In this document: piece after piece, positions 181 to 26,424 of the stretch
How positions within the stretch are numbered: the first letter of the stretch is position 1
How the letters are laid out: every line of letters starts with the position of its first letter
Source of the DNA: a virus
Direction: 5' to 3' (one strand)
IMG/VR virus record: IMGVR_UViG_3300030042_000123
Location: 1 to 64,000 of that record
Length of the DNA stretch: 64,000 bases
The notes under the pieces: generated by a model
Databases searched by the model: none
Told to the model about the DNA's origin: nothing
Seen by the model: the letters and a program-made list of their open reading frames with translations, nothing else
Position numbers and translations under genes: made by a program

Positions 181-549
181 TTATACTCCCGCAGCTAAGC
201 CTTCTCCTACGGCAATATACTCATCCCCACAGTATATAGCAGCCGCCAACCGATGATAGCCATCGAACATCGAACCGCTGGCTTTCAGGGTAATTGGTGC
301 AGCGGCCTCGCGGTGCTTCACGAAATAGGCGATCCTGTAGACATGACTCTTGCGGCTGGATGTTTCATCCCTCGTCCAAGAACCGCAATGTTTCGTCCAT
401 GGTCGGCCCTGTTCGTCTAGTGCGGGGTCTTGAAGTGCTTGCTGAATCTCCTCGGAGGTAATCGGGTCGCGTCTCCATGACTGACTCCACGGAGGACGTT
501 GTAATGGGTCTTGTTTCTGCCTCAACGATTCTACGAGCACTCGGTTCAT
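181..549 (-). CDS. Small protein with ParB/sulfiredoxin-like DGxHR motif
   Basis: A 122-residue protein. Its C-terminal third contains SMFDGYHRLAAAIYCG (about residues 91-106), which resembles the DGxHRxxAA signature of ParB/Srx-fold nucleotide-binding domains. The N-terminal part is rich in Trp, Gln and Arg with no recognisable fold. At 122 residues it is shorter than classical ParB, so at most it is a minimal ParB-like domain, and its substrate cannot be inferred. The start codon overlaps the stop of the upstream glycosyltransferase by ATGA, so it is translationally coupled and is the last gene of the glycosylation operon. Family call moderate, function unknown. Confidence 0.55.
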   Translation of the reverse strand: MNRVLVESLRQKQDPLQRPPWSQSWRRDPITSEEIQQALQDPALDEQGRPWTKHCGSWTRDETSSRKSHVYRIAYFVKHREAAAPITLKASGSMFDGYHRLAAAIYCGDEYIAVGEGLAAGV

Positions 550-1502
550 TTGATCTTCCTTCGGCTATCTGTGCCCCTATTATTGCGGTACAAAGCCCCT
601 TGACTCGGCTTCACGTGTCCCAAAAGAGCCCCCGACGCTGCCCTGTACACCTGTGCCGTTTGTGCTTTACGGGCGGGCGATGCCATCTTTTGCTCCATGG
701 TCGGTGGTGGGGGTGTGGGTCTCGGGGCTGCGGGCTGCTCTGGCGGTAGTATCGCCGCTGCCGCTTCGACCGGCCAAAGATCGGGGTGAAGCGACTTAAT
801 TCTCGCAATCAATTTCTGTCTGTTAGGGGTCGATGTCTTTCTATGCATCGAGTCGGGTCTCTCACGGTAGTGAAATAGTGGCTCGGGGACGATAACAAAC
901 CGCCAGCCACGCTCCGCAATGTCTAGCCACAGGTTCCAGTCCTCGTATCCGATGTGTTCCTTGTCGTATCCGCTTAGAGCGGGGTTGTACCCGCCGACTT
1001 CTTGAAGCACGCTACGTCGAATCAACGAACAAACGGGGATTGAATTGTCGGTTTTGAGTTGCTCAAGGGTCGGTGAGTATGTACGCCAGATGTAGTCCTT
1101 TATCCCGAAACAGGCGACGAGGGTGCCCACGACAGCCACACGTGTACCCTGCATCAGGGGCACCGTCTTTTTCAGATAGCTAGGGTCTATCCAATCATCG
1201 GCATCGAGCGGGAGAATGAACTCGTGCGGCTCCGCTGTCGAGACATTGATCCCCGTGTTCCTCGCGTAGGAGAGTCCCATGTTCTCCTGCGATATGACTT
1301 TCATGGTCGGCGATGCGGCGTGCTGACCATCCACCATCTCTTTGTAGCCTAAGGCGACGGCGAGTGAATTATCCGTCGAACCATCGTCCACCACGATCAC
1401 CTCAACGTTATCGTAATCCTGAGCGAGCGCCGACTGGATGGCCTGCGGGAGGTACTGTGCGAGGTTGTAGCACGGAATGATGATGGAAACTTTAGCTGCC
1501 AT
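546..1502 (-). CDS. Family 2 glycosyltransferase
   Basis: A 318-residue GT-A fold glycosyltransferase expected to move a sugar from a nucleotide donor. The N-terminus reads VSIIIPCYNLAQYLP and is followed by VVDDGSTDNS, the GT2 nucleotide-binding signature. LPLDADDW near residue 105 is the metal-binding DxD region. A later HIGYEDWNLWLDIAERGW segment fits the ED acid-base motif of GT2. The start was set at the ATG at 1502 because GGAG lies upstream at good spacing; the longer reading would add ten residues inside the upstream gene. It overlaps the upstream GT31-like gene by 11 bp and the downstream ParB-like gene by 4 bp. The last 60 residues are Pro/Ala-rich and probably flexible. Confidence 0.85.
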   Translation of the reverse strand: MAAKVSIIIPCYNLAQYLPQAIQSALAQDYDNVEVIVVDDGSTDNSLAVALGYKEMVDGQHAASPTMKVISQENMGLSYARNTGINVSTAEPHEFILPLDADDWIDPSYLKKTVPLMQGTRVAVVGTLVACFGIKDYIWRTYSPTLEQLKTDNSIPVCSLIRRSVLQEVGGYNPALSGYDKEHIGYEDWNLWLDIAERGWRFVIVPEPLFHYRERPDSMHRKTSTPNRQKLIARIKSLHPDLWPVEAAAAILPPEQPAAPRPTPPPPTMEQKMASPARKAQTAQVYRAASGALLGHVKPSQGALYRNNRGTDSRRKIK

Positions 1503-2133
1503 TGGTTGCTCCAATTTTCTGATAGTATTCATACATCATTTTGGGATCGTACTTTCTCTGCAACGCACTGGAGAAATGCAAAGAAACCATGTCTTTGTCC
1601 ACCGTTTCACCCGGACGCCATCTGTAGCCCCTGTGCCAAACGGGTAGAATTCCTTTATTCAGCAGCGCAATCGCCACAAACACATCCTCGGCATTCGTCA
1701 TTACCTCGGTGCTTGCGACGATTGCCATGGCTTTTTTACTCAACCAATACCCAGCCCCGCCGCTGGCAAACTGCACGGTCCTATTTCCCCAAGTGGGCAC
1801 TCTGTCGGCATTCTCACCCCCCATGTAGTCATGTTGTTCGAAGCCGCTGTGCAAGAAAGTCCACGGATTGACTAAGGTATCCGTATCGGTCTTGTGTATA
1901 AAATCGTAATCACACCCGTGCGCCCACGCGCACATCGCTCTGGTTTTATGGGAAAGGCCGAGATATCCGTCATCGACATCGAGAAACACTTCATCACTTT
2001 CTGGTTGCCCCGCAGGTCTCCCGAGGAAAAAGCGATAATCCACGTCCTTTAGGTCCTTCAACCACGTGTCTCGTTGGGCTTGATGGATCGAGCGATCCCT
2101 ATGGCAAGAAAGGATGGCGACTAAGATTTTCAT
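1492..2133 (-). CDS. GT31-like glycosyltransferase (paralogue 1)
   Basis: A 213-residue protein resembling the catalytic core of beta-1,3-galactosyltransferases (GT31). In order: an MKILVAILSCHRD start, RDTW, YRFFLG, DEVFLDVDDGYLGLSHKT, then HKTDTDTLV in the place of the DDD metal site, and FASGGAGYWLSKKA, matching the GT31 acceptor-side GxGY(v/w)LS motif. It lacks the N-terminal membrane anchor of animal enzymes. The window holds three more relatives (3936-4651, 4648-5352, 10504-11199), so this is a locally expanded family. The donor and acceptor are not predictable from sequence. It overlaps the genes on both sides and belongs to one long operon. Confidence 0.6.
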   Translation of the reverse strand: MKILVAILSCHRDRSIHQAQRDTWLKDLKDVDYRFFLGRPAGQPESDEVFLDVDDGYLGLSHKTRAMCAWAHGCDYDFIHKTDTDTLVNPWTFLHSGFEQHDYMGGENADRVPTWGNRTVQFASGGAGYWLSKKAMAIVASTEVMTNAEDVFVAIALLNKGILPVWHRGYRWRPGETVDKDMVSLHFSSALQRKYDPKMMYEYYQKIGATNGS

Positions 2134-2924
2134 CTGGTGTGAATCTCCGGGATGTGGGTGGTTTTATACTCTACGGTTGGTGCCCCAAATTGGACTTCGG
2201 CGTTCGATCTGCAATCCTCATTACAGACGTGGGGAATCTGCATATACTGCGGTGTTGGCGATAATTGACCAATCGCCTCAAGAAAAAGGTGTGGCACTTC
2301 ATGGGGTTGCAACGCCCGGTAGTGCCCCGAACCATTATGCGGGAAGGGGTAATTGTCCGTATTACGCCCGTGCCGCAGGGCGACCATCATTTTTCCCACG
2401 GGAGCAATCGCTAGTTGATCCGCGAGACGGGCTTCTCTAGCAAAAACACTATCCTCCCCAAAGGACACGTTCGGGTACTGGTGCTGCTTCCACCACTGTT
2501 TCCAGTACATTTGGCTGGTGCCCGAAGCAAGGTATGGGGGTCCCCCCAAGTTCAACATGAACTTTTTATGAGTCACCTCATAAATCACAGTCTGGTTGTA
2601 CCCCGTAACGGACTTCCTCGAATTATGAAGACGCCGAACTTCGTCCTCTATCCTGTGAGGATGGCTCCAGTCATCGTCATCCCAATTAGCGATGATTTCA
2701 CTCGTGGCATTTTCCGCACCCAGATTTCTCTTAGCCCCCGTTGTTGTACGGGCGGTCAAATGAATATACCGTATTCGATCATCGTTGGGAATGGTCAAGG
2801 GCTCGGTCCCATCATCCACGATGATAAGCTCTAGATCGGGATAACCCTGCTGATAGAAACACCGAATCGCCATCGGGACATATTTTGCACGATTGTGGGT
2901 CGGCATAACTAAGCTGATTTTCAT
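2130..2924 (-). CDS. Family 2 glycosyltransferase
   Basis: A 264-residue GT2 enzyme. It has ISLVMPTHNRAKYVPMAI at the N-terminus, LIIVDDGTEPL as the nucleotide-binding strand, and ANWDDDDWSHPHRIEDEV as the DxD metal site near residue 95. A KRNLGAENATSEII stretch precedes the DxD as usual in GT2. I chose the ATG at 2924, which overlaps the previous stop as ATGA and has GGGTGA upstream, rather than the TTG two codons earlier. The gene lies between a GT10-like gene and a GT31-like gene. Sugar specificity is unknown. Confidence 0.85.
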   Translation of the reverse strand: MKISLVMPTHNRAKYVPMAIRCFYQQGYPDLELIIVDDGTEPLTIPNDDRIRYIHLTARTTTGAKRNLGAENATSEIIANWDDDDWSHPHRIEDEVRRLHNSRKSVTGYNQTVIYEVTHKKFMLNLGGPPYLASGTSQMYWKQWWKQHQYPNVSFGEDSVFAREARLADQLAIAPVGKMMVALRHGRNTDNYPFPHNGSGHYRALQPHEVPHLFLEAIGQLSPTPQYMQIPHVCNEDCRSNAEVQFGAPTVEYKTTHIPEIHTR

Positions 2925-3934
2925 TTCCAATCACCCTTAGTGACTGCTGATCGAATAATCACGAAATGGTCGAAACAAAAACCCCGCCCAACCAACGCGG
3001 GTGGTTGATCCGCTTCCCACTGCATGGTAGCGGGCTCGTGACAATCTTGGCCTGTCGAACCCCACCAGTCGGGAATGCCCGTACCTACGGCCTTGTAAAG
3101 TTCTGATGCCCATTCGCATCTTAATTTTCTATTGGTGGTAATAGCCCCCACCAAGAGCCCAATGCGATCTTTATATGCAAGAGCCTTCCGATAGTTTTCT
3201 TCTACTGCCGCCTGTACCTTTGATGAGTGATAGAAATCGGGTGTCAGGGAACCCAAAATCCCTTTGAGCCTCGTTGCCGTGGTATCACTGGGGGAAACGT
3301 CGCTAAAGGACAGTACGCCATCCAAGTTGAAAAACTGCCCAATGTTTGCACAACCCCAAAAAATCGGAATTGTTTTCGTGGCAAAACAGTCCAAAAGAAT
3401 TTCCGAGAAGTAATTGGGTTGTTGGGAGTTTTGAATCGAAATCGCATACTGAAAAGGCACCAGCATGTCGCGCTTGTCCTGTAGGTAAGGCGGCGACATG
3501 TGCATTTTGACGGGAAGGGGTAACTCACCTCCATCCCCCAACCATTGTTGTAGCTCTTTGAAAGTTGCAATGCGAAATCTATGTCCAGCACACATGGTTT
3601 TCGCGCTGGTTAAAAAAGAGACTTGAAACTTTTTTTGCGACGTGTCGCTTTCTTTAGTCCAAACCCCATTGTTAGAGAAGAGGACGGCGTTGGGGCATTT
3701 GCTGAGCACGCGACTGTTGTCGGTCAAAATCAAATCATAGAACTTGTGGTTCTTAATGAGCCTCTCCTCTGTCGGGATAATGTCTTCCGGCTCAAGCTGC
3801 CAAAAAACTTTGTACGGGGTGGTATCGGCAAGATTGAAACAGTCCACCGAGATAGACGTTTTCCAATTTAGCTCGGGAACGTTCAATTCGTAGTTGGCAT
3901 AAATCACGGGTTTGTACGTTTTACCTTCGGACAT
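2921..3934 (-). CDS. GT10-like (alpha-1,3-fucosyltransferase-type) glycosyltransferase
   Basis: A 337-residue protein. Its C-terminal half contains VPFQYAISIQNSQQPNYFSE followed by ILLDCFATKTIPIFWGCANI. This matches the layout of the GT10 donor-binding motif (YKFxIaxENs..dYvTEK...a..agtVPIywG), with SEIL in place of TEK. GT10 enzymes transfer L-fucose from GDP-fucose to GlcNAc. The GMD gene in the same cluster makes the precursor of GDP-fucose, which fits, but other GDP-6-deoxysugars are possible. The start at 3934 has GGGGG upstream and sits one base after the preceding stop; a longer reading would invade the frameshifted gene. The C-terminus is Trp/Cys-containing and atypical. Confidence 0.55.
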   Translation of the reverse strand: MSEGKTYKPVIYANYELNVPELNWKTSISVDCFNLADTTPYKVFWQLEPEDIIPTEERLIKNHKFYDLILTDNSRVLSKCPNAVLFSNNGVWTKESDTSQKKFQVSFLTSAKTMCAGHRFRIATFKELQQWLGDGGELPLPVKMHMSPPYLQDKRDMLVPFQYAISIQNSQQPNYFSEILLDCFATKTIPIFWGCANIGQFFNLDGVLSFSDVSPSDTTATRLKGILGSLTPDFYHSSKVQAAVEENYRKALAYKDRIGLLVGAITTNRKLRCEWASELYKAVGTGIPDWWGSTGQDCHEPATMQWEADQPPALVGRGFCFDHFVIIRSAVTKGDWK

Positions 3935-3935
3935 T

Positions 3936-4651
3936 TTATCCCCCGTGTTCCTCGTACATACCGCGCATCCAATTGGAGGTGCTCGAATACCCAGTAACGG
4001 GGTCGGCAATTCCCTCTTCTCGGTAATGCCAAGCGGCTGCATGATGAAAATTATCTAGATTCTTGGCGGTGATTTCCCCCGATTTGATATACGGCCCCAA
4101 AACCTGCCCCACGTACTGGTCGCTAGTGCCAAAATAGTCGTCTTGGTTGCTGTTGACAACCAACTCCGATGCCTTACGACTCATGAACCACCCAGTGCCC
4201 GCATCCGCCGCTGCATAAGCTGGGCGCTTATAGAAGGGTTCATCGAAAGTCTCTCCCAGCGGTGCACGGTCGAGGGGGGGGGATAAAAGACCCCCGAATA
4301 ATCGTACTTTACAAAATCCGTTGTCTTAAGCTTGCTCGGAACAACGAATGTGTCATTGCAGCAGAGAAACGTGAAATCATAGCCCTGTTCTAAGGACCAA
4401 CGAAGCATCTCAATAGTCAATTCTTGGTAGTACAGGTTCCAAAGCAGCCAGTCAGCACCGCAAGCACGATTGGCTCGCTCAGGTAGCAGCACTTCATCCG
4501 ATACGGCCTTCCAACCGGGTGCGTCTCGATGCCCTATCATAAAGCGAAGGTCCCAAGGCGCTAGGTGCCCACCCCAAGTCTCACGAATCTTTTGGTGGTT
4601 CCCGTTGACGGAATCCCCCGTATGTGAATAAACAGCAACTAAAACTTTCAT
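3936..4651 (-). pseudogene. GT31-like glycosyltransferase (paralogue 2), frameshifted at a C9 tract
   Basis: Two reading frames together rebuild one homologue of the neighbour at 4648-5352. The first frame (4651 to 4181) starts MKVLVAVYSHTGDS and contains IRETWG, DLRFMIG and CNDTFVVP. It keeps homology up to YDYSGVFYPPP and then runs out of frame. The second frame continues with DAGTGWFMSRKASELVV, matching GGYFLSRRAAEAVL of the neighbour, and ends WMRGMYEEHGG, matching WMFDMYKKHGA. The switch lies at a run of nine G on the plus strand (4274-4282, C9 in coding sense). Ten or seven C would restore a single frame. It is either a true broken gene, a phase-variable gene, or a sequencing error in a homopolymer. 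The downstream half has its own ATG at 4184 overlapping the early stop as ATGA. Confidence 0.75.
4274..4282. repeat. Mononucleotide tract G9 (C9 in coding sense)
   Basis: Nine consecutive G on the plus strand inside a glycosyltransferase gene, exactly where the reading frame changes. Tracts of this length are prone to slipped-strand mispairing. Confidence 0.9.
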
Positions 4652-5352
4652 TGATCTGCTCCGTGTTTCTTATACATGTCGAACATCCAAGGAGAACCCA
4701 CGGGGTAGCCATCCCTAATCACTGGGTCTATAATCCCCTGCGCTCGGTAATGCCAAGAAGTCTCATTCCAAAAATGGTCAAGGGATTTGATCGCCATCTC
4801 CCCCCGCTCAGCCATAGGTCTCAACACATCACAAACAAGGTTTTCAAAGTGCAAATGGTCGGGGGTTGTTTTCAATACGGCCTCAGCCGCCCGTCGTGAA
4901 AGGAAATACCCACCGGGTTCCGCGTAGTAATAATCGGGCTTGTCTGCGTGAACGTACATCATCCAGCCAGAAAAATCATAGTTCTCAAAACCGAGTTTCA
5001 TCAACTTACGCGGGACGAGGAAAGTGTCATTTTCGGCGAGGAAGGTGTGGTCGTACCCGTTGCGAATAGACCAGTCCAGAATCCCCCGATACAGGACTTG
5101 CCAGTATTCTACACAGGTACACCCCGGCTCCGCGTGCCAATACGGATGCTGGCAGGTCCGCGTACCGTCTTCTTGCCAAGGGATCAGCGTTTCGTCGGGT
5201 TTCGGTTGATAGAATTTGTCGCGGCGACCTATAAAGAAGCGTAGGTCTGCGCCAGCGGGGGCAACGTCTTTACCCCAAGTCTGTCGAATCTTGTCGTGAT
5301 TTCCGTTTTCAGCATCTCCCTGAAAGGAGATGATGGCGATTAGAACTTTCAT
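4648..5352 (-). CDS. GT31-like glycosyltransferase (paralogue 3)
   Basis: A 234-residue protein with the same plan as the other GT31-like genes here: MKVLIAIISFQGD, IRQTWG, DLRFFIGRR, AENDTFLVPRKLM at the DxD position, and EPGGYFLSRRAAEAVL. It is the closest relative of the frameshifted gene just downstream, and the two probably arose by tandem duplication. The metal site reads E-N-D-T rather than D-D-D, a deviation worth noting for activity. The start at 5352 has GGAGG eight bases upstream and overlaps the upstream stop as ATGA. Acceptor and donor unknown. Confidence 0.6.
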   Translation of the reverse strand: MKVLIAIISFQGDAENGNHDKIRQTWGKDVAPAGADLRFFIGRRDKFYQPKPDETLIPWQEDGTRTCQHPYWHAEPGCTCVEYWQVLYRGILDWSIRNGYDHTFLAENDTFLVPRKLMKLGFENYDFSGWMMYVHADKPDYYYAEPGGYFLSRRAAEAVLKTTPDHLHFENLVCDVLRPMAERGEMAIKSLDHFWNETSWHYRAQGIIDPVIRDGYPVGSPWMFDMYKKHGADQ

Positions 5353-6041
5353 TTTACAAACCTCCAACAACCACACCCGCCTTCACATTTTGCTACGAGG
5401 GCGGGATCGGCGTTGAGAATAAATTCCTGCGGATCATCAGTCCATAGGGCAAACTCGGCCACTTTGAGGGGATAAAACATGTCCACCACCATCTGGTACG
5501 AATAAACTCTCCCCATGTTGTAAATGAGACGTGGTTTTCCGCAAGGAACAGCCATGAGTAATTGACCCCCCGGCGCTAAGACGCGGACTAATTCCGCCGC
5601 CGCTTTTCTGTCCCCCGAAGCATCCACCGCGTCTCCATACCTGCCCAATCCGATGTGCTCAAGGGTGTGAAGGCTTGAAAGGGAATCTATTGAATTGTCG
5701 GCAAACGGAAGCGACGTAAGGTTGGCCTCACCGCAAACAAAACTGGACAATCCCTTACAGGGCATAGGGCGAAACTCATAGAACTCCATGGGAATGAAGG
5801 CCGACACCGCCACAGCCCAAAAATTCAAGGATGCAATATCGATGTGTTTAGCTGGTCGGGTAGCAGCGAGCACGCGGGATGCCCACCCCGTGTGATAGAT
5901 GTAGTGTTGGTCCCAAGTCAGTTGTTGCGTGTCCTCGTCTAACCGAGGAGACCAAATATCGCGGGAGGGAGTGAACCGCCCGTCAGCTTGAGACTCACTA
6001 CAAAGTTTCTGAAAATTCTGTTCGAAAGTTTCTGGCGTCAT
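5349..6041 (-). CDS. SAM-dependent methyltransferase-like protein (DUF268-like)
   Basis: A 230-residue protein. PAKHIDIASLNFWAVAVSAF near residue 63 is in the place of motif I but with a degenerate glycine-rich loop. It is followed by LPFADNSIDSLSSLHTLEHI and ELVRVLAPGGQLLMAVPCG, the classical motif II/III region of class I methyltransferases. The order resembles DUF268 proteins found in polysaccharide clusters. It lies between the DegT-family enzyme and GT31-like genes, so O- or C-methylation of a cluster sugar is the simplest role. The C-terminus carries a Cys-rich KCEGGCGCW segment. Poor conservation of the SAM loop leaves activity uncertain. Confidence 0.6.
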   Translation of the reverse strand: MTPETFEQNFQKLCSESQADGRFTPSRDIWSPRLDEDTQQLTWDQHYIYHTGWASRVLAATRPAKHIDIASLNFWAVAVSAFIPMEFYEFRPMPCKGLSSFVCGEANLTSLPFADNSIDSLSSLHTLEHIGLGRYGDAVDASGDRKAAAELVRVLAPGGQLLMAVPCGKPRLIYNMGRVYSYQMVVDMFYPLKVAEFALWTDDPQEFILNADPALVAKCEGGCGCWRFVK

Positions 6042-7210
6042 TTTAGGTACTCGTGCAAAACCTCTGAAACGTAGTGTATGTCGCTTGAGGTCAAGCCCTG
6101 ATGCATACCGATGAAGAAACCATTCTTAGCCAGATGCTCTGCGACTGGGTGATTGGCCGCTTCACCCGGGAACAATTTCTGATAGATCGGTTGGCTAAGG
6201 AGGGGAAAGAGATAGCGTGTCTCAATGCCCCGCTCTTCCAAGTACATCAGGAGTTTATCCCTACCGGAGACATCGAGCACCATGGGATACATCATAAACG
6301 AATGCTGATACCCCTCAGGCACGACGGGTAGCTGTAGCTCGGGGATATCGCTCAACAGACTCGTCAGTTCGGATGCATTAGTACGGCGGGTTAGGATGTT
6401 TTCTTCCCAACGTTCCAACTCGCTCAGGGCTATGGCAGCCTCCAGTTCCGTAGCGCGATAGGAGTAGCCCACACGTTCAAAACGATAGCGTCTCTCGATG
6501 ATTTGCTTTGAGAGTTCAATTGATTCGGGGTTGTCATCGTCATCAATGTTTGTGTAGATACTGTCACGTCCGTGTGCCATCAAGCTACGGCAAAGTCCGT
6601 CAAGCTCCGTGTTGCTGGTCGTTACGATACCACCCACACCGCCGACAATCAGGTGTGCGACATAGGTGGAAAAACAACCAAAGTCACCGAAAGACCCAAC
6701 AGACTGACCGTTTAGGTTCGCAAACATTGTCTCGCAGGAATCCTCGATTACCTGAAGCCCGCACCTACTCGCAATTTCCATGATAGCGGTCATATCAGCG
6801 GGCAGCCCAAACAGATGAACTGGAATGATACAGCGTGTGCGGGGGGTAACGGCCTCTTCGACCCTCGCGGGGTTTAGATTAAAGGTAAGGGGGTCAACGT
6901 CCACAAAGACGGGCTTCATGTTATTTTGGATGACGATATTGCTGGTAGCGATGAACGTGATCGCGGGAACGATCACTTCGTCCCCATCCTGATAGCCGTG
7001 GACTTCTTTGAGGGCCGCGAGCGCAACCTGTAGGGCACTGGTGCCGCTATTCATAAAAATGCCGTGCTTTGACCCGTGCAAATCAGCAAACCCCTTCTCA
7101 AAGGCAAGAGTGTACTCACCCTTTGATAGGCGATTGTTATTTAGGGCATCGTTGACGTACTGCTTGCCCTTCGTACTGATGTCCAGATTTCCTAGAGTTA
7201 TGGGCCTCAT
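6038..7210 (-). CDS. DegT/DnrJ/EryC1/StrS-family enzyme with His replacing the PLP lysine
   Basis: A 390-residue fold-type I PLP enzyme. NSGTSALQVALAAL (PLP phosphate site), PAITFIATSNIV, FVDVDPLTFNL, PVHLFGLPADM and VIEDSCETMFA are all canonical. The Schiff-base position (SFHxTK in aminotransferases) reads FSTYVAHLIVGGVGG, so Lys is replaced by His. That replacement is the hallmark of sugar 3-dehydratases such as ColD and RfbH rather than aminotransferases. With GMD in the same operon, an attractive but unproven reaction is C3 deoxygenation of GDP-4-keto-6-deoxymannose. The Glu of the usual GEGG is also replaced by Val. The start overlaps the upstream epimerase by ATGA. Confidence 0.8.
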   Translation of the reverse strand: MRPITLGNLDISTKGKQYVNDALNNNRLSKGEYTLAFEKGFADLHGSKHGIFMNSGTSALQVALAALKEVHGYQDGDEVIVPAITFIATSNIVIQNNMKPVFVDVDPLTFNLNPARVEEAVTPRTRCIIPVHLFGLPADMTAIMEIASRCGLQVIEDSCETMFANLNGQSVGSFGDFGCFSTYVAHLIVGGVGGIVTTSNTELDGLCRSLMAHGRDSIYTNIDDDDNPESIELSKQIIERRYRFERVGYSYRATELEAAIALSELERWEENILTRRTNASELTSLLSDIPELQLPVVPEGYQHSFMMYPMVLDVSGRDKLLMYLEERGIETRYLFPLLSQPIYQKLFPGEAANHPVAEHLAKNGFFIGMHQGLTSSDIHYVSEVLHEYLK

Positions 7211-7755
7211 AGGTGGAAAAACTCCTTCGCGGTTACGGCGTGTCGATCCCTATCCGACAAGATGGGGTGATCTTTTACAGGCCAGTCGATGCCGATAACA
7301 GGATCATCCCACAGGATTGCGTCATCGAATGCTTTATTGAAATGCCCCGAGCACTTGTACTGCACCTCGGAGTAATCCTCTAAAGCACAGAAACCCCGAG
7401 CAATGTCCGCCTCACCCCAAAGCTGAAGTTTGTCCCCCTCCTCCATAATGAGGCTGTAGTATTGTAGGAACGTGGGGGATTGTGGGTTAACATCAACCGT
7501 CACCATAAAAACTCTACCGCGTGGAACACGCATCAGCTTTGCCATGGGTGGTGTAGACTGAAAGTGCAGCCCTCGAACTACGTCCTTCATGGAGCGGGAG
7601 TGGAGATCGCGGACAAACGGCGGGAGACCCATTTCTTTCATCTCGTCATCGAGGTAAGTGATGTTAAAAAAGCCGCGACTATCCTCAAAACAGGTTGAGG
7701 ATATCAACTTCACACGCCCGCCAAACTTCTCGTCTTCTACCTTAAAGTGATTCAT
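7207..7755 (-). CDS. RmlC-like nucleotide-sugar 3,5-epimerase
   Basis: A 182-residue cupin of the dTDP-4-dehydrorhamnose 3,5-epimerase family. It shows FEDSRGFFNITYL, then HSRSMKDVVRGLHFQ containing the catalytic His, KLMRVPRGRVFMVTVDVN, and ILWDDPVIGIDWP followed by LSDRDR. The usual AHGF segment reads ARGF, so one substrate-contacting His is Arg here. Length matches the family. In this operon it probably epimerises a GDP-4-ketosugar made by the adjacent GMD/DegT enzymes rather than a dTDP sugar, since no RmlA or RmlB is present; this is inference. It overlaps both neighbours. Confidence 0.85.
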   Translation of the reverse strand: MNHFKVEDEKFGGRVKLISSTCFEDSRGFFNITYLDDEMKEMGLPPFVRDLHSRSMKDVVRGLHFQSTPPMAKLMRVPRGRVFMVTVDVNPQSPTFLQYYSLIMEEGDKLQLWGEADIARGFCALEDYSEVQYKCSGHFNKAFDDAILWDDPVIGIDWPVKDHPILSDRDRHAVTAKEFFHL

Positions 7756-8755
7756 GTAGCCCCCTATGCCACGCGATTGTTCTCTTCAGACCCTCTTCCA
7801 GAGTGGTGTACTCGGTCTTTCCTAAGTCAGCCTCCATTAGAGAGATGTCCATCCGAGGCAGGGCGTGAGAACCGGGCAGTTCCTTATCCTCCTCTGGAAT
7901 TTGAATCGTTGACCCTGTAAGCCGAGCAACGATGGTTGCTAATTCGGCGATACTGGTTGTGGAACGCTCGCCAACGTTGTAAACGGGTTTTGTGCCGTGA
8001 AGGATAACCCTCCACAACATCGTCGCAACGTCTTTAGCGTAGCAGCATGTCCGCATCTCTTTACCTGAAAATTTCATCTCGATGTGATTGGCTGTTACTG
8101 CTTGATCGATAAATCCGCTTAGGGCTCGTTTGTCACCCTTACGAGCGCCGAGGCCATAGGTCAGGTTGAGGCGGGCAGACGCCGCGTTAACACCGTTCTT
8201 ACGGTAGGAGTGAGTAATTGCTTCGCCGCTCCGCTTTCCCTCAATGTAGCCCGCTCGTGGATGGTAGGGGGTGGTGGTTCCAATGTCTTCTTCCGTAGCG
8301 AACTCCTTGTGTAGACCGTGGTAAACTTCATTGGAACTCACAAAAAGGAAACGACCCCCCGAGTTGAGGGATTCCAACAGCCGTTCTGTAACGGCTGTGT
8401 TTACAAGAATGGTCGCTGCGGGGTTAGCCATGAAAATCATGGGTTGACCGTACCCCGCTGAGTGGATGATAACATCTGTTTGAGGCACCTTCATTGAATC
8501 GTGATAAAGATCGAACCCAGCAAGGGTCGCAAGCTCTTTGGTGTACGGCGCGGGTTCGCTGTGGTACTGTCCGAAACCCTCAATCTTGTACCCCTCCCGT
8601 TTGAGGACATAGAGAATCGTCAGGAGGTGCATACCGATTAACCCCGTAGCCCCCGAAATAAAAACACGAGCGCCATCGAGTGGTTTATAATCAACCACGC
8701 TTAGAGCTTCTTCAGCATCATGAATTAAGAGGTTAAGCATTTGAGTCGTTGTCAT
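7742..8755 (-). CDS. NAD-dependent epimerase/dehydratase (extended SDR)
   Basis: A 337-residue extended [18 protein letters not shown] near residue 33 is the NAD(P) Rossmann motif. [10 protein letters not shown] and YIEGKRSGE (YxxxK) give the catalytic Ser and Tyr/Lys, and [16 protein letters not shown] follows as in UDP-sugar epimerases. It probably supplies the epimerase or reductase step that finishes the GMD-derived sugar, for example a ColC- or GMER-like role, but sequence alone does not settle which. The ATG at 8755 forms an ATGA overlap with gmd and was preferred over the codon four triplets upstream. Confidence 0.8.
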
Positions 8756-9750
8756 TGCCAGTCCCATTCGTAAGGATTTCCACCATTAGGCCCACATTCT
8801 CTGCGAGCGTCCGCCATGTCCGCGTCAACCATCATGCGGACTAAATTTCGAAACTTCCACTGGGGTTCCCAACCCAGCATCCTTTTTGCCTTGGATGCAT
8901 CCCCGAGTAGGATATCTACTTCTGTGGGGCGATAGTATTTCGGATCGATCCCCACGTACTTGTTCCAGTCCAGTCCCAGATATTCAAATGTCTCATCCAG
9001 AAACTCCCGCACCGTGTGTGTTTCTCCCGTGGCAATAACGAAATCCTCGGGGGTGGGTTGCTGTAGCATGAGCCACATGGCTTCCACGTAATCTTTAGCA
9101 TATCCCCAGTCACGTTTAGCGTCAAGGTTTCCCAGCAAGAGTTCCTTTTGGAGTCCCACCTTGATCCTCGTCGCTGCTTTGGTAATCTTGCGCGATACGA
9201 AGGTTTCGCCACGCCGAGGAGACTCATGGTTGAACAGGATGCCGTTGCAGGCAAACATGCCCATTTCACGATAGTTCACGGTCGTCCAAAATGCAAACTG
9301 CTTGGCAATACCGTAAGGACTCCGAGGATAGAATGGGGTCTTTTCAGTCTGCGGCACTTCCAGCACCTTTCCGAACAATTCACTGGACGATGCTTGATAA
9401 AATTTGGCCGTAGGGCACTGTGCCTTGATTGCTTCGAGAAGCCGTAGCGTCCCCAAAGCATCTACATCGGCAGTGTACTCGGGGATGTCGAAGCTAACGC
9501 GCACATGGCTCTGTGCTCCCAAGTTGTACACCTCATCGGGTTGAATTTCCCCCACCAACCGACTCAGGGCACTACCGTCAGTCAAATCGCAGTAGTGGAG
9601 GTGGAGACGATCAAAAATGTGGTCAATTCGTCCAGTGTTGAAACTGCTTGATCGACGAATGACACCGTGGACTTCGTAGCCCTTCTCCAGCAGAAGTTCC
9701 GCCAAGTATGAACCATCCTGCCCCGTTATTCCTGTAATTAGAGCCTTCAT
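8752..9750 (-). CDS. gmd: GDP-mannose 4,6-dehydratase
   Basis: A 332-residue enzyme that converts GDP-D-mannose to GDP-4-keto-6-deoxy-D-mannose, the entry step to GDP-fucose, GDP-rhamnose, GDP-perosamine and GDP-colitose. [19 protein letters not shown] is the near-invariant GMD N-terminus. [35 protein letters not shown] (catalytic Tyr/Lys) and [17 protein letters not shown] are all diagnostic. It lacks nothing obvious and is close to bacterial GMD in length. It lies between the GT11 fucosyltransferase and the SDR, with ATGA-type overlaps on both sides. It is the clearest anchor for the chemistry of the whole cassette. Confidence 0.95.
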
Positions 9751-10517
9751 ATTTTAATCCACCCGTCAGGTATGATGTCTCGACTGTCTAAATCCTTTGC
9801 AGAAAACCATCGTTTAGGTGCCACGACGATTTTATCTGGGTTCGGATTCAGCCACGCACCCCACCAACTGAAAGAACTGTTCACGATCACGTTGTGACGA
9901 CAGAGGGACATCAAGTGGAGGTCTTCAAACTTGCTTCCCGTTTCAATGACCGTCCCAGTCAGGTTATCCTCACACCATTTCGGGTCATCGGAAAAGATGA
10001 AGACCTTGGGGTTGGAAACCTTTTGTGAGATTGTACCAATGGCTGCCGTGTAATACGTTGGTTCCACCATTCCATGAAATGCGAGCAATTGCAGATAGTC
10101 GCCTCGGCGTACATGGAGGGAGATGCTTTCACAGCTTTGAATCTCCTTGGCAATTGCTTGAGCCTTTTCACTCAGCGAGGATTTCAGGGTCAATTCTTTA
10201 CGAATTGAGTCTTCGATGTTTAGGAAATACTTTTCTGTTTGAAAATAGCCGTAGACGATGGTAGGTTCGGGGATGTTAAGCATTCTCTCGTCAAAGGGTA
10301 GTCCGCTCTCGTAGAGTGGCGCTGCCCCAATAGGCGGGGGGTTGTGGAGCTTGACGATAGTATTGAAACCGTCTAGAGAATAGATGCGGTGGTCCGTAAC
10401 ATTGACAACCTGTATGTTCGTGAGATAGACCTCGCGACCCTGCGCTGCGAGTGCTCTACTGTAGGCGTATTGGAAAAGCTGATTCCCCAACCCTCCCATT
10501 AAATTAACTGTCACCAT
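9747..10517 (-). CDS. GT11 family alpha-1,2-fucosyltransferase
   Basis: A 256-residue enzyme with three GT11 motifs: [20 protein letters not shown] at the N-terminus, [11 protein letters not shown] near residue 133 (HxRRxDY, GDP-fucose binding), and [20 protein letters not shown] near residue 211. GT11 enzymes transfer L-fucose from GDP-fucose to galactose in alpha-1,2 linkage, forming H-type epitopes. It sits directly beside gmd, consistent with a GDP-6-deoxyhexose donor. The ATG at 10517 overlaps the upstream gene by 14 bp; a GTG one codon later is an alternative start. Confidence 0.9.
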
Positions 10518-11199
10518 GGATTTTCAACTCCTGAGCGTAGGTACGCATCATAGTAGGATCGCACGGATGAACGGCGATAAACTCGGAATTCCTCGGCATC
10601 GCGGCTACGCCTACGAATTTGCCAGCTATGGGATGATACCGCGTATCATGCTTTGGAATGATCCTAGCTTTACGCATCACCGACCCCACCCAGTGATCCT
10701 CTAATGTATTGTTTGGTTGCGCGGCTGCGACCAACCTAGCGGCCCTTGCGCTCAACCAGTACCCTAGTCCAGTCACGTAAAGGTTTTGAGGTGTATGAAC
10801 GCTGGCGGAACCCACATAGTCGTAAGCCTCAAACCCGCTCTTCATCAGGCGATCCACCCAAACAAAGGTGTCATCATCAGTCTTGAAGATGAAATCGTAT
10901 TGGCGCTCCCCTGACCATTGGCACACGCCTCTTGTCTTGTACGGCAGGCTTTTGTAGTCATCTGGAACGTCCAAAAACACTTCATCGGGTAGCGGCTGTC
11001 GATTCGCTCCGCGCCCATAGAAGAACCTCACATCGACATTGGGGTAAGCTGCAAAATCCTTGACCCAAGTCTCACGGCACGCCGCGATCTGTACGTCTAC
11101 GGGGATGGAATTGTGCTTCATCCTATTCGTCCAATCCCAGCCTTTACCCGGCATACCGACGTACCTATGGCAAGCCAAGATCGCTACCAGCACCTTCAT
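10504..11199 (-). CDS. GT31-like glycosyltransferase (paralogue 4)
   Basis: A 231-residue protein and the most canonical GT31-like member in the window. It shows CRETWVKDF, VDVRFFYGRG, DEVFLDVPDDYKSLPYKT, IFKTDDDTFVWVDRL (a complete DDD metal site) and VTGLGYWLSARAARLV. It has a 25-residue insertion after the first strand (YVGMPGKGWDWTNRMKHN) compared with paralogue 1. A beta-galactosyl- or N-acetylglucosaminyl-type transfer is expected from the family. It lies between the GT6-like and GT11 genes, an order that would suit stepwise assembly of a blood-group-like glycan; that is inference. Confidence 0.65.
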   Translation of the reverse strand: MKVLVAILACHRYVGMPGKGWDWTNRMKHNSIPVDVQIAACRETWVKDFAAYPNVDVRFFYGRGANRQPLPDEVFLDVPDDYKSLPYKTRGVCQWSGERQYDFIFKTDDDTFVWVDRLMKSGFEAYDYVGSASVHTPQNLYVTGLGYWLSARAARLVAAAQPNNTLEDHWVGSVMRKARIIPKHDTRYHPIAGKFVGVAAMPRNSEFIAVHPCDPTMMRTYAQELKIHGDS

Positions 11200-11903
11200 G
11201 GCAAATTCCTCTGTTCAAATGGCTGCACCCCGTTCACGGCCGGGCGGTTGGGCGTACCCTTGGGGACACGCCAGATTTTGATGTCAGGAGTTTTAGTCCA
11301 GTTGTTGTACGGCAAGTCCAATTCCTTCGTCGGCGGGAATTCGTAGAAATAGCGATTGATGTGCGACTCATCATGCCATGTGGCGATAAAGTTGTTGGCG
11401 GTGTCGATATCGATCCTCTTGCTGATCGTTTCCGCCATGCTCAAGATTTTCTCAGTTGGTCCGCCCCAGAAACCGCCAATGTACATCTTACGGATGTCCC
11501 TCTTACTGAGGTAGGCGGTGGACTTCGGGTTCTCCTCGGGAGTGCAGTAACGCCCCTTGCTCAATTCGAACGAGGCGTGTACGCAAGCCGTGATGCCGTC
11601 AGAGAGGACTTCCGCCGCAGCTATCGGGCTCATCATGTTCATGCACACGTCCATGTAGAAAACGTACTTGTACTGGGACAGCCATTCCCGCTGGCTCAAT
11701 ATGGTATGGAATCGCATCAGTGTGGCGTTCGGCCATCCGGGATGCGGGTGCATCACCTGCTTGGCGACGGGAAACTGCTGAGGATTGTCCGTGAACAGAA
11801 GGATGTCGGCGGGAAAGAACGCACGCACCGAATCGACCGCCGCTTGGGTAAATTTCCAGTAGGCGGTGCCTGTACAGATGATTACGAGTGCTACGTCGCT
11901 CAC
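11196..11903 (-). CDS. GT6-like (histo-blood-group ABO/alpha-1,3-galactosyl type) glycosyltransferase
   Basis: A 235-residue protein with the signature blocks of GT6: YVFYMDVCMNM at the DxD site, YIGGFWGGPTEKIL (GGxxGG acceptor region), and TWHDESHINRYFYEFPPTKE, which is nearly diagnostic (WHDESHxNkY...PtK). GT6 enzymes transfer Gal or GalNAc alpha-1,3 to fucosylated galactose. The second Asp of DVD is Cys here; bacterial GT6 enzymes often lack a canonical DxD. The start is GTG at 11903, forming a GTGA overlap with the upstream endonuclease-like gene and preceded by GGGAG. Confidence 0.8.
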   Translation of the reverse strand: MSDVALVIICTGTAYWKFTQAAVDSVRAFFPADILLFTDNPQQFPVAKQVMHPHPGWPNATLMRFHTILSQREWLSQYKYVFYMDVCMNMMSPIAAAEVLSDGITACVHASFELSKGRYCTPEENPKSTAYLSKRDIRKMYIGGFWGGPTEKILSMAETISKRIDIDTANNFIATWHDESHINRYFYEFPPTKELDLPYNNWTKTPDIKIWRVPKGTPNRPAVNGVQPFEQRNLP

Positions 11904-12337
11904 GGCGTGACTCCCATACTAATCGGTTTGAGATACTGAATGGCTTTCGCAAGCAACTCGGGGGAGATTTTCAGCTTCTTCAGTCCCTCCATGCAGTCGG
12001 CACACAACAGCCCATGGACCCGCCCATCGCGGAAATCCACCAAAGTCTTCCTGTTATACAATACCAACGCCAAGTCACAGATCGGGCACTTTTTATCCTG
12101 AGCCCGCCAAAGGTCGAGGTACTGACCCGGGTGCATGTGGTATTCGCGTTCGAGGAAGGCGTCATAGGTGTGAACTTTCGTCCAAAACGTCCCACAATAG
12201 GTGTTGTGGCAGGTGCGGCAGTAGTAGGAGCGGCCACTGGCGGTGCGTTTGTTGAGGCCAAAAGCCGACAAGACGAGCCACTTTTCACACTTCCGACACC
12301 ATTTTGTTTTGTCGTTGAAGAGTCTTTTACGCCCCAC
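11900..12337 (-). CDS. Degenerate endonuclease VII-like HNH protein
   Basis: A 145-residue protein resembling recombination endonuclease VII. It has a zinc knuckle KWCRKCEKW with YYCRTCHN, then DLWRAQDKKCPICDLALVL, and GLLCADCMEGL near the C-terminus followed by AIQYL. The catalytic block that reads VDHDHxTG in active relatives is LVDFRDGRVHG here, and the conserved CN of CNxxLG is CM, so metal binding and catalysis are probably lost. GTG at 12337 with AGGGGG upstream is the likely start; it overlaps the upstream HNH gene by 11 bp. A longer reading to 12742 would only translate the HNH gene in the wrong frame. Confidence 0.65.
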   Translation of the reverse strand: MGRKRLFNDKTKWCRKCEKWLVLSAFGLNKRTASGRSYYCRTCHNTYCGTFWTKVHTYDAFLEREYHMHPGQYLDLWRAQDKKCPICDLALVLYNRKTLVDFRDGRVHGLLCADCMEGLKKLKISPELLAKAIQYLKPISMGVTP

Positions 12338-12938
12338 TCGATGCCCCCTCTGTTTTCGGCTCCATGCAGGACGCACATCGAGATTGCTTGCCGTTTGGCA
12401 TACTAGCCTTATTTCCAAACATGTCGGGAACAAGCCACTGGCAACACCCGTTACACCAAATTGTTTGACCGTTAATTTTGCTGTAAGTCCCATCCGTGGC
12501 AACCCGATTTCGTCCACAATACGTGTCGGTTTGAGTGTGACAGTTGGGGCAAATTTTCTGTAGGTTTTCTCGGCGACAATCACCGCCATCGCCGTTTTTA
12601 TGGTCAATTTGAAACCGTAAGGGTCTACCATTCCAAATTGTCCCCTGTCCGCAGAGCATACAAGTGTCTGGTGTCTGTTTGTAAAACCGATTCTTAGCCG
12701 CCCATACGTGCTTAGAGTCTTGGCAAAAAACCTCCGCATCACTTAATTTACGACGACTTCGCCACTCACCTGTGAAATGATCTGTACTAAGCCCCAATTG
12801 TACGACCCATTTCTTCAAATTTGCCCCGTTATTGGCCTTTAACCCCAAAGCAAGGCACGCTCCCGTCCACGACTTTGCCTGTCGAACAGCTAGTGGGAGG
12901 TCTTCGAGTTTCCACTTTTTCGGTGTTTTTGGGGTCAT
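12327..12938 (-). CDS. HNH homing endonuclease
   Basis: A 203-residue protein. An N-terminal helix-turn-helix-like region (DLPLAVRQAKSWTGACLALG) precedes an HNH core: CMLCGQ, then RFQIDHKNGDGGDCRRENLQ and KICPNCHTQTDTYCGRN. This layout is typical of free-standing phage HNH endonucleases. A second CxxC pair (WCNGCCQW, RCASCM) follows. It is the first gene of the leftward operon, with the GTATTA element 7-12 bases upstream of its ATG. It probably acts as a selfish DNA endonuclease and not in phage physiology. Confidence 0.85.
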   Translation of the reverse strand: MTPKTPKKWKLEDLPLAVRQAKSWTGACLALGLKANNGANLKKWVVQLGLSTDHFTGEWRSRRKLSDAEVFCQDSKHVWAAKNRFYKQTPDTCMLCGQGTIWNGRPLRFQIDHKNGDGGDCRRENLQKICPNCHTQTDTYCGRNRVATDGTYSKINGQTIWCNGCCQWLVPDMFGNKASMPNGKQSRCASCMEPKTEGASSGA

Positions 12939-15627: not shown

Positions 15628-16233
15628 ATGGTCGGTGTTTACTGCTGGGTAAATGTTGAAAACGGAAAGGTTTACATCGGGTCAACAACCGATGTGATTC
15701 GGCGGAAATATCACCACACCCGTCTTTTGAAAGTCCAAAAACACCCCAATGTGCACCTTCAAGCCGCTTGGCTCAGATATGGGGCCAACGCTTTTGAGTT
15801 CGAACTTCTAGAACAAGTCGATGATCTTGTATGGCTTCGTGCCCGAGAACAGGCTTGGATCACCCGGCTTCAAGCGTGTGATCGAGAATTCGGTTACAAC
15901 GTCACCAGTGACGCATGGGCACCCGTAACCTCGCCTGAGACCATCGCCAAGATGAAGAAGGCTTGGATCGCACGAAAGGCTCGTGGGGACTACTACAAAT
16001 TCACGACGGCGGATACTGTGAAAGGCAAGGCGGCTTCTGGCAAGAAAAACAAGGCTCGCTGGCAAGACCCTAAAATCAGAGCCGAAATGCAAGAAGCACA
16101 AAAGGCTGGTTGGACACCCGAGGTCCGAGCCGCACAAGCAAAACGTTTTGAACAACAAATCCTGAAAGACCCTACAATGCTCAGTCGAGGCGGCATCAAA
16201 GGCTCCGCTGTGCGTTGGGGAAAGGTGAACTAA
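15628..16233 (+). CDS. GIY-YIG homing endonuclease
   Basis: A 201-residue protein. It begins GVYCWVNVENGKVYIGST, a GIY-YIG signature in GVY-YIG form, with a downstream Arg at RRKYHHTRLL and Glu in LLEQVDDLVWLRAREQAWI. The C-terminal half (TSPETIAKMKKAWIARKAR and repeats of basic helices) is a DNA-binding region of the NUMOD type. There is no Shine-Dalgarno; TTTAGTATTATAACAC immediately precedes the ATG. Its stop codon is one base before a possible ATT start of the next gene. Confidence 0.85.
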   Translation: MVGVYCWVNVENGKVYIGSTTDVIRRKYHHTRLLKVQKHPNVHLQAAWLRYGANAFEFELLEQVDDLVWLRAREQAWITRLQACDREFGYNVTSDAWAPVTSPETIAKMKKAWIARKARGDYYKFTTADTVKGKAASGKKNKARWQDPKIRAEMQEAQKAGWTPEVRAAQAKRFEQQILKDPTMLSRGGIKGSAVRWGKVN

Positions 16234-25823: not shown

Positions 25824-26424
25824 AGTTCACCTCTCGCCGACCCTTGTTCCAAGGGACTCTACCTTGAGCAGCCGACTTCATTTTCTGTATCGTGCTTTCG
25901 GAGTGCCTTCTGTCTTTGAACCTAGTACCGAGGTTTGCTATTAGCTGCTCTTTTGAAGTTACACAGGGCATTTCACTAAGGGTTTTGCTGATCTTATCGC
26001 AAACATCTTGGGGAACAGTGCGCCCAAACATCGACTTGCTAATCTTGTCACGAACAGCTTGGGGGATGGGCTTTCTGTACTGGTGATGGTTTACCCCGCT
26101 CATCTTCCGACGAGTCTCTTCATTGGGGATTAACCCGTCACCCCCCATCGTCAGGTTATAGCCGTTCTCAGGTTTATGGGATTGATGCAGGATAATGAAG
26201 AAGGTCTCCATTTTACGGAGTTCTTCCTTGGTCTTGGCTTGGTGCAAGACCTCGACGGTAAAAGCCTCTGCACCGTACTTGCGGATGGCGTTGTGAAAGT
26301 AGAATGGACTACCCCTGCGGGCTCTGTACCGATGCTCTTTCCACCGACGATTAACGCTGGAGCCTTCCCACTTGCCGATGTAGACCTTGCCGTTGACCGT
26401 ATTTGTAATGCGGTAAACAAGCAT
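25813..26424 (-). CDS. GIY-YIG homing endonuclease
   Basis: A 203-residue protein with LVYRITNTVNGKVYIGKWEG as the GIY-YIG core, RRWKEHRYRARRG carrying the conserved Arg, and MGGDGLIPNEETRRKMS followed by helical NUMOD-type DNA-binding repeats (VRDKISKSMFG, VCDKISKTLS). It ends EVNCAP, overlapping the GTG start of the giant gene by 11 bp. It stands alone rather than within an intron. Likely a mobile element whose target is in or near the flanking genes. Confidence 0.85.
   Translation of the reverse strand: MLVYRITNTVNGKVYIGKWEGSSVNRRWKEHRYRARRGSPFYFHNAIRKYGAEAFTVEVLHQAKTKEELRKMETFFIILHQSHKPENGYNLTMGGDGLIPNEETRRKMSGVNHHQYRKPIPQAVRDKISKSMFGRTVPQDVCDKISKTLSEMPCVTSKEQLIANLGTRFKDRRHSESTIQKMKSAAQGRVPWNKGRREVNCAP

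Follow-up and report, generated by a model that had tools for sequence, protein, structure and literature searches.

A phage sugar cassette predicted to build an ABH-type oligosaccharide from a candidate GDP-3,6-dideoxyhexose donor

Introduction

The cyanophages P-SSM2 (AY939844) and ACG-2014f (KJ019091) carry a GDP-mannose 4,6-dehydratase (GMD), an Fcl-family enzyme, a GT11 enzyme and a GT6 enzyme in a single cluster. Published reports describe GMD, a fucose synthase and three fucosyltransferases in S-SCSM1 (PMC9602691) and note GT6 in two cyanophages (PMC3961637). Whether large cyanophage lipopolysaccharide (LPS) gene clusters are functional or 'stuffer DNA' was not known in 2010, according to one report (PMC3037559). 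Here we describe a sugar cassette at positions 546–11903 of a 64 kb window (the whole stretch of DNA analysed, positions 1–64,000 of the virus record IMGVR_UViG_3300030042_000123, which has 120,343 bases). The class is already known in ocean phages; this locus is a variant of it that has additional parts and makes its donor by another pathway. With moderate confidence, we propose from the sequence that the cassette makes a short branched ABH-type oligosaccharide using a GDP-3,6-dideoxyhexose donor and behaves as a serotype locus.

Compared with the cyanophage LPS-type clusters, the window has an RmlC-type epimerase and a short-chain dehydrogenase/reductase (SDR) where those have the Fcl-like enzyme; it also carries a GT10-like gene and four GT31-type genes and belongs to another phage lineage. 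In the fetched stretches of P-SSM2 and ACG-2014f no match from our local GT31 profiles was listed, and no Pfam search aimed at GT31 or GT10 was made in them. An initial annotation of the window knew of no described phage with the full set of families found here. This has to be narrowed, since both cyanophages hold GMD, an Fcl-family enzyme, GT11 and GT6, but the full set may still be new. What is new is the set of parts, the use of RmlC and SDR for the Fcl-like enzyme, the exchange of the cassette between related phages and a GT31 gene broken at a run of nine C residues (C9).

There are two bacterial parallels. In the Escherichia coli O86 O-antigen cluster (WbwK of GT11 and WbnI of GT6; blood group B), GT11 and then GT6 likewise act on β-galactose, as described in PMC4202792. 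That cluster makes a bacterial O-antigen, whereas the phage record lacks PF01943 and PF04932. The other parallel is the colitose pathway GMD–ColD–ColC, which we take to be of the E. coli O55/O111 type. It shares with the window GMD and a DegT-family 3-dehydratase with an active-site histidine (PMC8987622). In the window, however, RmlC and SDR stand in place of a ColC-like enzyme, and DegT forms a separate lineage.

Composition of the cassette

Profile matches in the record to a major head protein, a head protease, a tail sheath, a tail fibre, baseplate J and an endolysin identify a contractile-tailed phage. The cassette comprises 15 open reading frames (ORFs) on the minus strand (Table 1), bordered by an endonuclease VII-type gene (11900–12742) on one side and by the gene for a 122-residue protein on the other. 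Neighbouring ORFs overlap by 4 to about 107 bases when the first possible starts are used, which, with the shared strand, would fit a single transcription unit; a promoter and terminator scan gave no signal above that of shuffled sequence. The order of transcription is GT6, GT31a, GT11, GMD, SDR, RmlC, DegT, methyltransferase, GT31c, split GT31d, GT10-like, GT2b, GT31b and GT2a.

Curated Pfam or NCBIfam cut-offs are passed by GMD, GT11, GT6, two GT31 proteins, both GT2 proteins, RmlC and DegT. The GMD, GT11, GT6, GT31-like and two GT2 enzymes of the initial annotation are thus borne out, as are its motifs (RRGDY and SSFSWWGAW in GT11 and WHDESHINRY in GT6). It had named placement of GT6 and GT31 outside their families as a refutation; the profiles instead returned GT6 with 70.7 bits (PF03414, cut-off 25) and two GT31 proteins above the Pfam Galactosyl_T cut-off. 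The RmlC-like, DegT and methyltransferase genes were absent from it.

Table 1. Features of the cassette and its borders, in window coordinates
Feature	Position	Strand	Evidence or remark
GT6 (ABO/WbnI/BoGT6a-type retaining alpha-1,3-Gal/GalNAc transferase family)	11196..11903	-	Profile, structure match; metal site DVC
GT31-type beta-1,3-glycosyltransferase a	10504..11199	-	Pfam 39.7 bits vs 23
GT11 (alpha-1,2-fucosyltransferase family)	9747..10517	-	Pfam 113.5 bits vs 23.9
GMD, GDP-mannose 4,6-dehydratase	8752..9750	-	TIGR01472 equivalog, 519 bits vs 415
Extended SDR, no equivalog; S-S-x-E and Y-x3-K kept	7742..8767	-	Profile, motif
RmlC-type cupin 3,5(or 5)-epimerase	7207..7755	-	TIGR01221, 159 vs 155.75 bits
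DegT/DnrJ/EryC1/StrS-family protein, His at PLP-lysine position (residue 186); predicted PMP-dependent sugar 3-dehydratase	6038..7210	-	
Methyltransferase (DUF268/Methyltransf_11)	5349..6041	-	Pfam
GT31-type beta-1,3-glycosyltransferase c	4648..5376	-	Alignment, profile, predicted fold
GT31-type d, N-terminal part (frame lost at C9 tract)	4181..4651	-	Homologue alignment
GT31-type d, C-terminal part, other frame	3936..4184	-	Homologue alignment
C9 homopolymer tract (coding strand), at frame break	4274..4282	-	
GT10-like (alpha-1,3/4-fucosyltransferase-type)	2921..4042	-	Support via relatives
GT2 glycosyltransferase b	2130..2930	-	Pfam well over cut-off
GT31-type beta-1,3-glycosyltransferase b	1492..2133	-	Pfam 28 bits vs 23
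GT2 glycosyltransferase a, Pro-rich linker and conserved C-terminal tail	546..1532	-	Pfam well over cut-off
Conserved C-terminal tail, core KPSQGxLYRN	549..653	-	In some sister cassettes on different glycosyltransferase
122-residue border protein, distal cassette end	181..549	-	99% identical in L009 despite different interior
PLP, pyridoxal phosphate; PMP, pyridoxamine phosphate.

The donor sugar

The donor pathway is read from GMD, DegT, RmlC and SDR. DegT has histidine at the position where aminotransferases carry the PLP lysine, and the Lys-to-His exchange is given in PMC8987622 as the most important difference between sugar 3-dehydratases and aminotransferases. Its best NCBIfam profile is that of RfbH, a 3-dehydratase (226.8 bits, under the cut-off of 423). 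The four Fe–S cysteines of E1 are absent from the aligned stretch of DegT, the five cysteines of which sit elsewhere; the anatomy is therefore ColD-like and not E1-like. An E1/RfbH-type CDP pathway was rejected on the missing cysteines, and no cassette gene matched an E3-type reductase, for which no separate search was made. An AlphaFold model of DegT was not used, its mean predicted local distance difference test score (pLDDT) being 72.5 and falling to <50 at the active site.

The initial annotation suggested that the SDR might serve as the GDP-fucose synthase. This is not supported by the NF047922 (GDP-L-fucose synthase) profile, which gives 35 bits against a cut-off of 500, or by the active-site motif, S-S-N-E in place of S-S-C. 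The same annotation saw no dedicated GDP-fucose synthase, and we likewise found none in the cassette, nor a ColC-like enzyme. Taken with the His-type DegT, the lack of a GDP-fucose synthase makes a GDP-3,6-dideoxyhexose the likelier donor, and a colitose-like sugar (3-deoxy-L-fucose) is more likely than the fucose assumed initially.

Comparison with other viral cassettes suggests how the pathway could be completed (fetched loci are designated by L numbers). The DegT subtype of the window occurs in nine distinct viral cassettes (L061 and L143 were excluded as repeats), the other eight DegT sequences being 64–74% identical to that of the window by tblastn, with a clade support of 1.0. All nine cassettes hold GT11 and GMD. 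RmlC and SDR are present in three (the window, L062 and L063) and an Fcl-like SDR in six (L059, L060, L064, L065, L066 and L076), and the two versions were never found together in the 10–13 kb fetched for each. The Fcl-like SDRs scored 274–289 bits in the five checked with NCBIfam (cut-off 500), L064 being assigned by a local profile only. This mutual exclusion suggests that RmlC and SDR do the epimerase and reductase work of the Fcl-like enzyme.

A His-type DegT also lies near GMD, GT11 and GT6 in ACG-2014f, L012/L042 and L019. The ACG-2014f gene (L056, 7246–8439), between the GMD and Fcl-like genes and GT11, has the 3-dehydratase histidine and is annotated as hypothetical, so that a ColD-like gene can now be flagged there. 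Two-gene thiamine pyrophosphate (TPP) enzymes, pyruvate-dehydrogenase-E1-like plus transketolase-like, were seen in L062 (3267–4417) and L063 (3358–4478) beside GT11 or GMD, SDR, RmlC and the His-type DegT, and were not seen in the window cassette; similar pairs occur in 12 further loci among the best 80 DegT-driven ones. A 4-keto-3,6-dideoxy sugar may receive a two-carbon branch from the TPP pair, as happens in yersiniose.

A scan of genome contigs with DegT returned 18 loci; 17 of them had sufficient length for the tree, and 16 of these were of the Lys type. The scan did not reveal the host; the best match, 52% identical, was on a short contig binned as Thermoplasmata. This His-type relative (L298) lies beside a GT1-type gene on a 5.9 kb contig that could be a virus contig.

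Glycosyltransferases and order of assembly

The GT6 protein scores 120 bits with NF041524, under that profile's own cut-off of 250, and retains the WHDES motif. Its nearest solved structure is BoGT6a of Bacteroides ovatus (E = 1.3e-24), an enzyme that acts on 2'-fucosyllactose and, like most bacterial GT6 proteins, has an NXN metal site, being metal-independent (PMC3961637). In an alignment of 57 rows with identical sequences merged, DVC was found in five (the window, its repeat L001, L007, L008 and L009), three were unreadable and DXD was present in 49/49 of the others. Between the window and L009 the GT6 proteins are 97% identical, with nonsynonymous divergence (dN) of 0.022, synonymous divergence (dS) of 0.793 and dN/dS of about 0.03, which suggests that the DVC motif is kept under constraint; a misaligned capsid row was dropped from this comparison, and three other gene rows gave no dS and were left out. 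GT11 may use fucose or its 3-deoxy analogue.

The two families are linked in one direction. GT11 is present in 44 of the 50 loci of the viral GT6 scan, four of which (L005–L008) are the window's own species, and it lies directly upstream within 100 bases in 29. The reverse searches, each limited to the best 80 loci, gave GT6 in ten GT11-driven loci and GT11 in 18 DegT-driven loci. Restricting the comparison to loci with full 6 kb flanks gives 23/26 for GT6-driven loci with GT11, 10/33 for GT11-driven loci with GT6 and 17/54 for DegT-driven loci with GT11. After clustering, the corresponding figures are 9/10, 8/34 and 7/34 at 60% identity and 5/6, 6/22 and 6/16 at 50%. Pfam places GT11 over its cut-off in 36 of the 38 GT6-locus records submitted, the other 12 loci, on contigs of ≤13.2 kb, being left out. 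A requirement of GT6 for the GT11 product, as ABO transferases require the H antigen, would explain this one-sided pattern. The H-then-A/B order of assembly, as the initial annotation expected from the families, is thus supported at the level of gene content.

GT31c and GT31d have no significant Pfam match on their own sequence. GT31c is alignable with GT31a and GT31b, and a 24-member profile of the group (split GT31d left out) finds B3GALT5 (E = 1.7e-11), C1GALT1, B3GNT2, B3GALT6 and Manic fringe. The predicted fold of GT31c (mean pLDDT 84.6) matches B3GNT2, B3GALT5, B3GALT6 and Manic fringe, above which the chondroitin synthase CHSY3–CHPF1 takes the two top ranks. GT31d is tied to the family by relatives of GT31c that align with both of its parts. 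The GT10-like protein itself scores 15.2 bits, under the Pfam cut-off of 23.9. In its 27-member alignment 25 sequences match PF00852 at E ≤ 0.01, the window protein not among them, and the joint profile finds Helicobacter pylori FucT (2nzw; E = 1.7e-20). The initial GT10-like assignment therefore stands for the family and not for the protein's own score. The Lewis-type activity also envisaged would depend on this one protein and is not sustained.

Evaluation of the proposed pathway

In the proposed scheme GMD, assigned to its family by profile, would convert host GDP-mannose to GDP-4-keto-6-deoxymannose; DegT would remove O-3, as its Lys-to-His active site suggests; and RmlC and SDR would set C5 and reduce C4 to give a GDP-3,6-dideoxyhexose, most likely colitose-like. 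As judged from their families, the GT31 and GT2 enzymes would build a chain ending in β-galactose, GT11 would add the deoxyhexose α-1,2 to this galactose, GT6 would add α-1,3-Gal or GalNAc to the same galactose and a second deoxyhexose may come from the GT10-like enzyme. Slippage in a C9 tract may act as a switch for one GT31 gene. The scheme specifies both the donor to look for (GDP-3,6-dideoxyhexose or GDP-fucose) and the sequence of additions (β-Gal, then GT11, then GT6).

Several observations weigh against it. In sequence DegT comes closest to perosamine synthase, an enzyme of the Lys type, with 199.6 bits; E1 reaches 171.6 and ColD 146–151. In a tree of 135 DegT sequences, built without characterized ColD or E1 sequences, the His lineage of the window (20 members, support 0.997), a canonical His–His lineage (84, assigned by motif, 0.997) and a Lys lineage (31, 0.945) join at one point, so that a single gain of the histidine, shared with ColD, and two separate gains would fit equally. 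Neither GT11 nor a GMD above 200 bits was seen in the stretches fetched for the other 11 members of the window lineage (ten viral and one from a metagenome-assembled genome); use of a GDP substrate is therefore not a trait of the lineage as a whole. No His-type DegT was seen in 42 of the 50 GT6 loci, and of the eight loci with such an enzyme three come from the species of the window itself; GT11–GT6 pairs thus usually do without this enzyme. The SDR keeps a glutamate, presumably the residue typical of dehydratases. The nearest solved relatives of RmlC are dTDP enzymes (E of about 1e-32), with GDP-sugar epimerases at 2e-14 at best. The DVC site of GT6 is neither DXD, as in other phage GT6 proteins, nor the bacterial NXN, and the GT10 assignment rests on family membership. 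The GT6 and GT11 counts come from best-80 lists, related contigs and local profiles built on the same loci, and are therefore descriptive; at 40% identity they become 2/2, 5/10 and 5/5, where the contrast fades and the groups are too few to tell.

The most serious competitor is that the donor is plain GDP-L-fucose, with RmlC and SDR following GMD as a split fucose synthase, true fucosylated ABH/Lewis glycans as products and DegT in a separate amino- or deoxy-sugar branch. The GMD, GT11 and GT10-like families are fucose-linked, RmlC and SDR occupy the place of the Fcl-like enzymes of sister cassettes, the Fcl-family enzyme of P-SSM2 reaches 462 bits, near the cut-off of 500, and the many GT6 loci with no His-type DegT also fit. 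However, the DegT and RmlC genes overlap within a single run of genes, the sister Fcl-like enzymes score well under 500 bits and the SDR lower still. We consider plain fucose possible but distinctly less probable than a 3,6-dideoxyhexose.

It is less probable again, and in our view unlikely, that two nucleotide sugars are made: one by a GDP route from GMD finished by the host and one by a dTDP-type route in which SDR, RmlC and DegT act on host dTDP-glucose. RmlC narrowly exceeds the dTDP-4-dehydrorhamnose epimerase cut-off, its solved relatives are those named above, and the SDR, with its dehydratase-like glutamate, is nearest to UXS/RmlB-type enzymes. Its RmlB score is nevertheless far under the cut-off (69 against 365 bits), and across the nine cassettes that share this DegT and GMD, RmlC with SDR and the Fcl-like enzymes exclude each other, which speaks against two routes.

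Exchange of the cassette

In the relative L009, the capsid protein of which is 98% identical over residues 47–371, GT6 and the 122-residue border gene are kept (97 and 99%), GT31, GT11 and GT2 have diverged, and other genes, two SDRs among them, replace GMD, RmlC and DegT. A third relative, L331, has an ice-binding ORF, GT6, GT31 and GT11 in the same order and differs further on. Border genes are thus kept while the interior is exchanged between related phages, as at a serotype locus. The records of the other eight DegT-subtype cassettes (nine with L061), 30–112 kb long and possibly fragments, have no match to the window capsid protein, and these cassettes are likely to belong to other phage lineages. 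Nuclease-type genes (HNH, endonuclease VII and homing endonuclease; HNH below the cut-off) lie near the cassette and tail genes at 12327–12938, 11900–12742, 15628–16233 and 25813–26424; they may help exchange of the cassette.

Five cassettes each have a single protein with the conserved C-terminal tail: GT2a in the window, GT31–GT6 fusions in L009 and L331, a GT2–GT2–GT31 protein in L062 and a frame truncated where the contig ends in L328. The tail, which could be a docking tag, was not seen in the remaining sister cassettes fetched. In each fusion (L009, 10705–12471; L331, 15799–17535) a single protein joins GT31 to a further GT6 domain, which in L009 has a DAD motif; both loci therefore carry two GT6 domains.

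The cassette might instead be functionless filler, the 'stuffer DNA' raised for cyanophage LPS clusters in PMC3037559. One GT31 gene is frame-broken, and GT11 is present in six of 12 chosen records with this capsid protein and not seen in the other six, which may be fragments. Filler would not account for the low dN/dS of GT6, for the remaining cassette genes being open or for the matching set, with alternative enzymes, kept by sister cassettes, and we regard it as very improbable. The question of function or stuffer becomes directly testable through the one-sided GT6–GT11 association, the strong constraint on GT6 and the existence of two pathway versions that can replace each other.

Acceptor of the glycan

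The window record and a 186 kb sister have no match to PF02397, PF01943 or PF04932, single families of sugar-phosphate transferases, flippases and polymerases/ligases, respectively; other families with these functions were not searched. Among 18 records, PF02397 occurs in two and PF01943 and PF04932 in none. Export of an own O-antigen was set aside on these grounds, and a phage protein or a host lipid-linked precursor becomes the likelier acceptor, on which the chain is probably built or to which it is added. The cassette shares its strand with the tail-fibre, head and sheath genes, which would slightly favour late expression alongside virion proteins. Some phage glycosyltransferases are known to act on phage DNA, and RB69 arabinosylation is on record in the literature, but DNA as the target is extremely improbable here and was set aside, as PF00303 (thymidylate synthase/hydroxymethylase) was found in 0/12 records and a GT31–GT11–GT6 series is, to our knowledge, unlike the known DNA glucosyltransferases.

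The split GT31 gene

The GT31d gene is broken at the C9 tract: the alignment with homologues changes frame on crossing the tract. This alignment through both frames rejects two real genes at 4181 and 3936. A sequencing slip was also rejected because three other contigs, possibly not independent samples, have the same tract. The tract is the only C/G run of at least seven in 120,343 bases, where no A/T run reaches eight; a first-order model predicts about 15 C/G runs of at least seven and 1.0 of at least nine. The run alone is therefore not improbable; what stands out is that it is isolated and sits exactly where the frame breaks. Elsewhere in 2.59 Mb of fetched viral loci, C/G runs of at least nine occur only in L178 and L179, outside any ORF of at least 80 residues. 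Poly-G/C contingency genes are known among bacterial LPS glycosyltransferases. The phase-variable ones resemble GT31d in having a homopolymer tract at a frame break in a glycosyltransferase gene; they differ in that GT31d is in a phage and its tract has the same length in 4/4 records. GT31d may accordingly be phase-variable, switched by slippage in the tract; the equal lengths make a fixed frameshift the plain alternative. Within one open-licence library, a search by these words yielded no paper joining a bacteriophage genome, phase variation, a homopolymeric tract and a glycosyltransferase.

A bolder version of the proposal would have a swappable, partly phase-variable phage serotype locus that decorates the virion's proteins with a 3,6-dideoxyhexose ABH analogue, the shared tail docking one of the glycosyltransferases to the acceptor; we hold it to be improbable in this full form. 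If the main scheme set out above is right, phages carry the logic of a blood-group-like antigen and can exchange the cassette, and perhaps switch its phase, much as bacteria do with their O-antigens.

Other features of the window

An ice-binding-like (DUF3494) ORF at 13061–15535 on the plus strand passes its cut-off with two matched stretches. A further DUF3494 domain follows DUF2793 in a tail-fibre-like protein (26769–28613, minus strand), and a weaker ice-binding relative lies in L004 at about 3182. The 1221-residue ORF at 45886–49551 (minus strand) matches tail sheath over residues 871–1217, its first ~870 residues being without a PHROGs match. A NAD salvage pair at 60053–62396 (minus strand) comprises a nicotinamide phosphoribosyltransferase together with a protein that matches both cytidyltransferase and Nudix.

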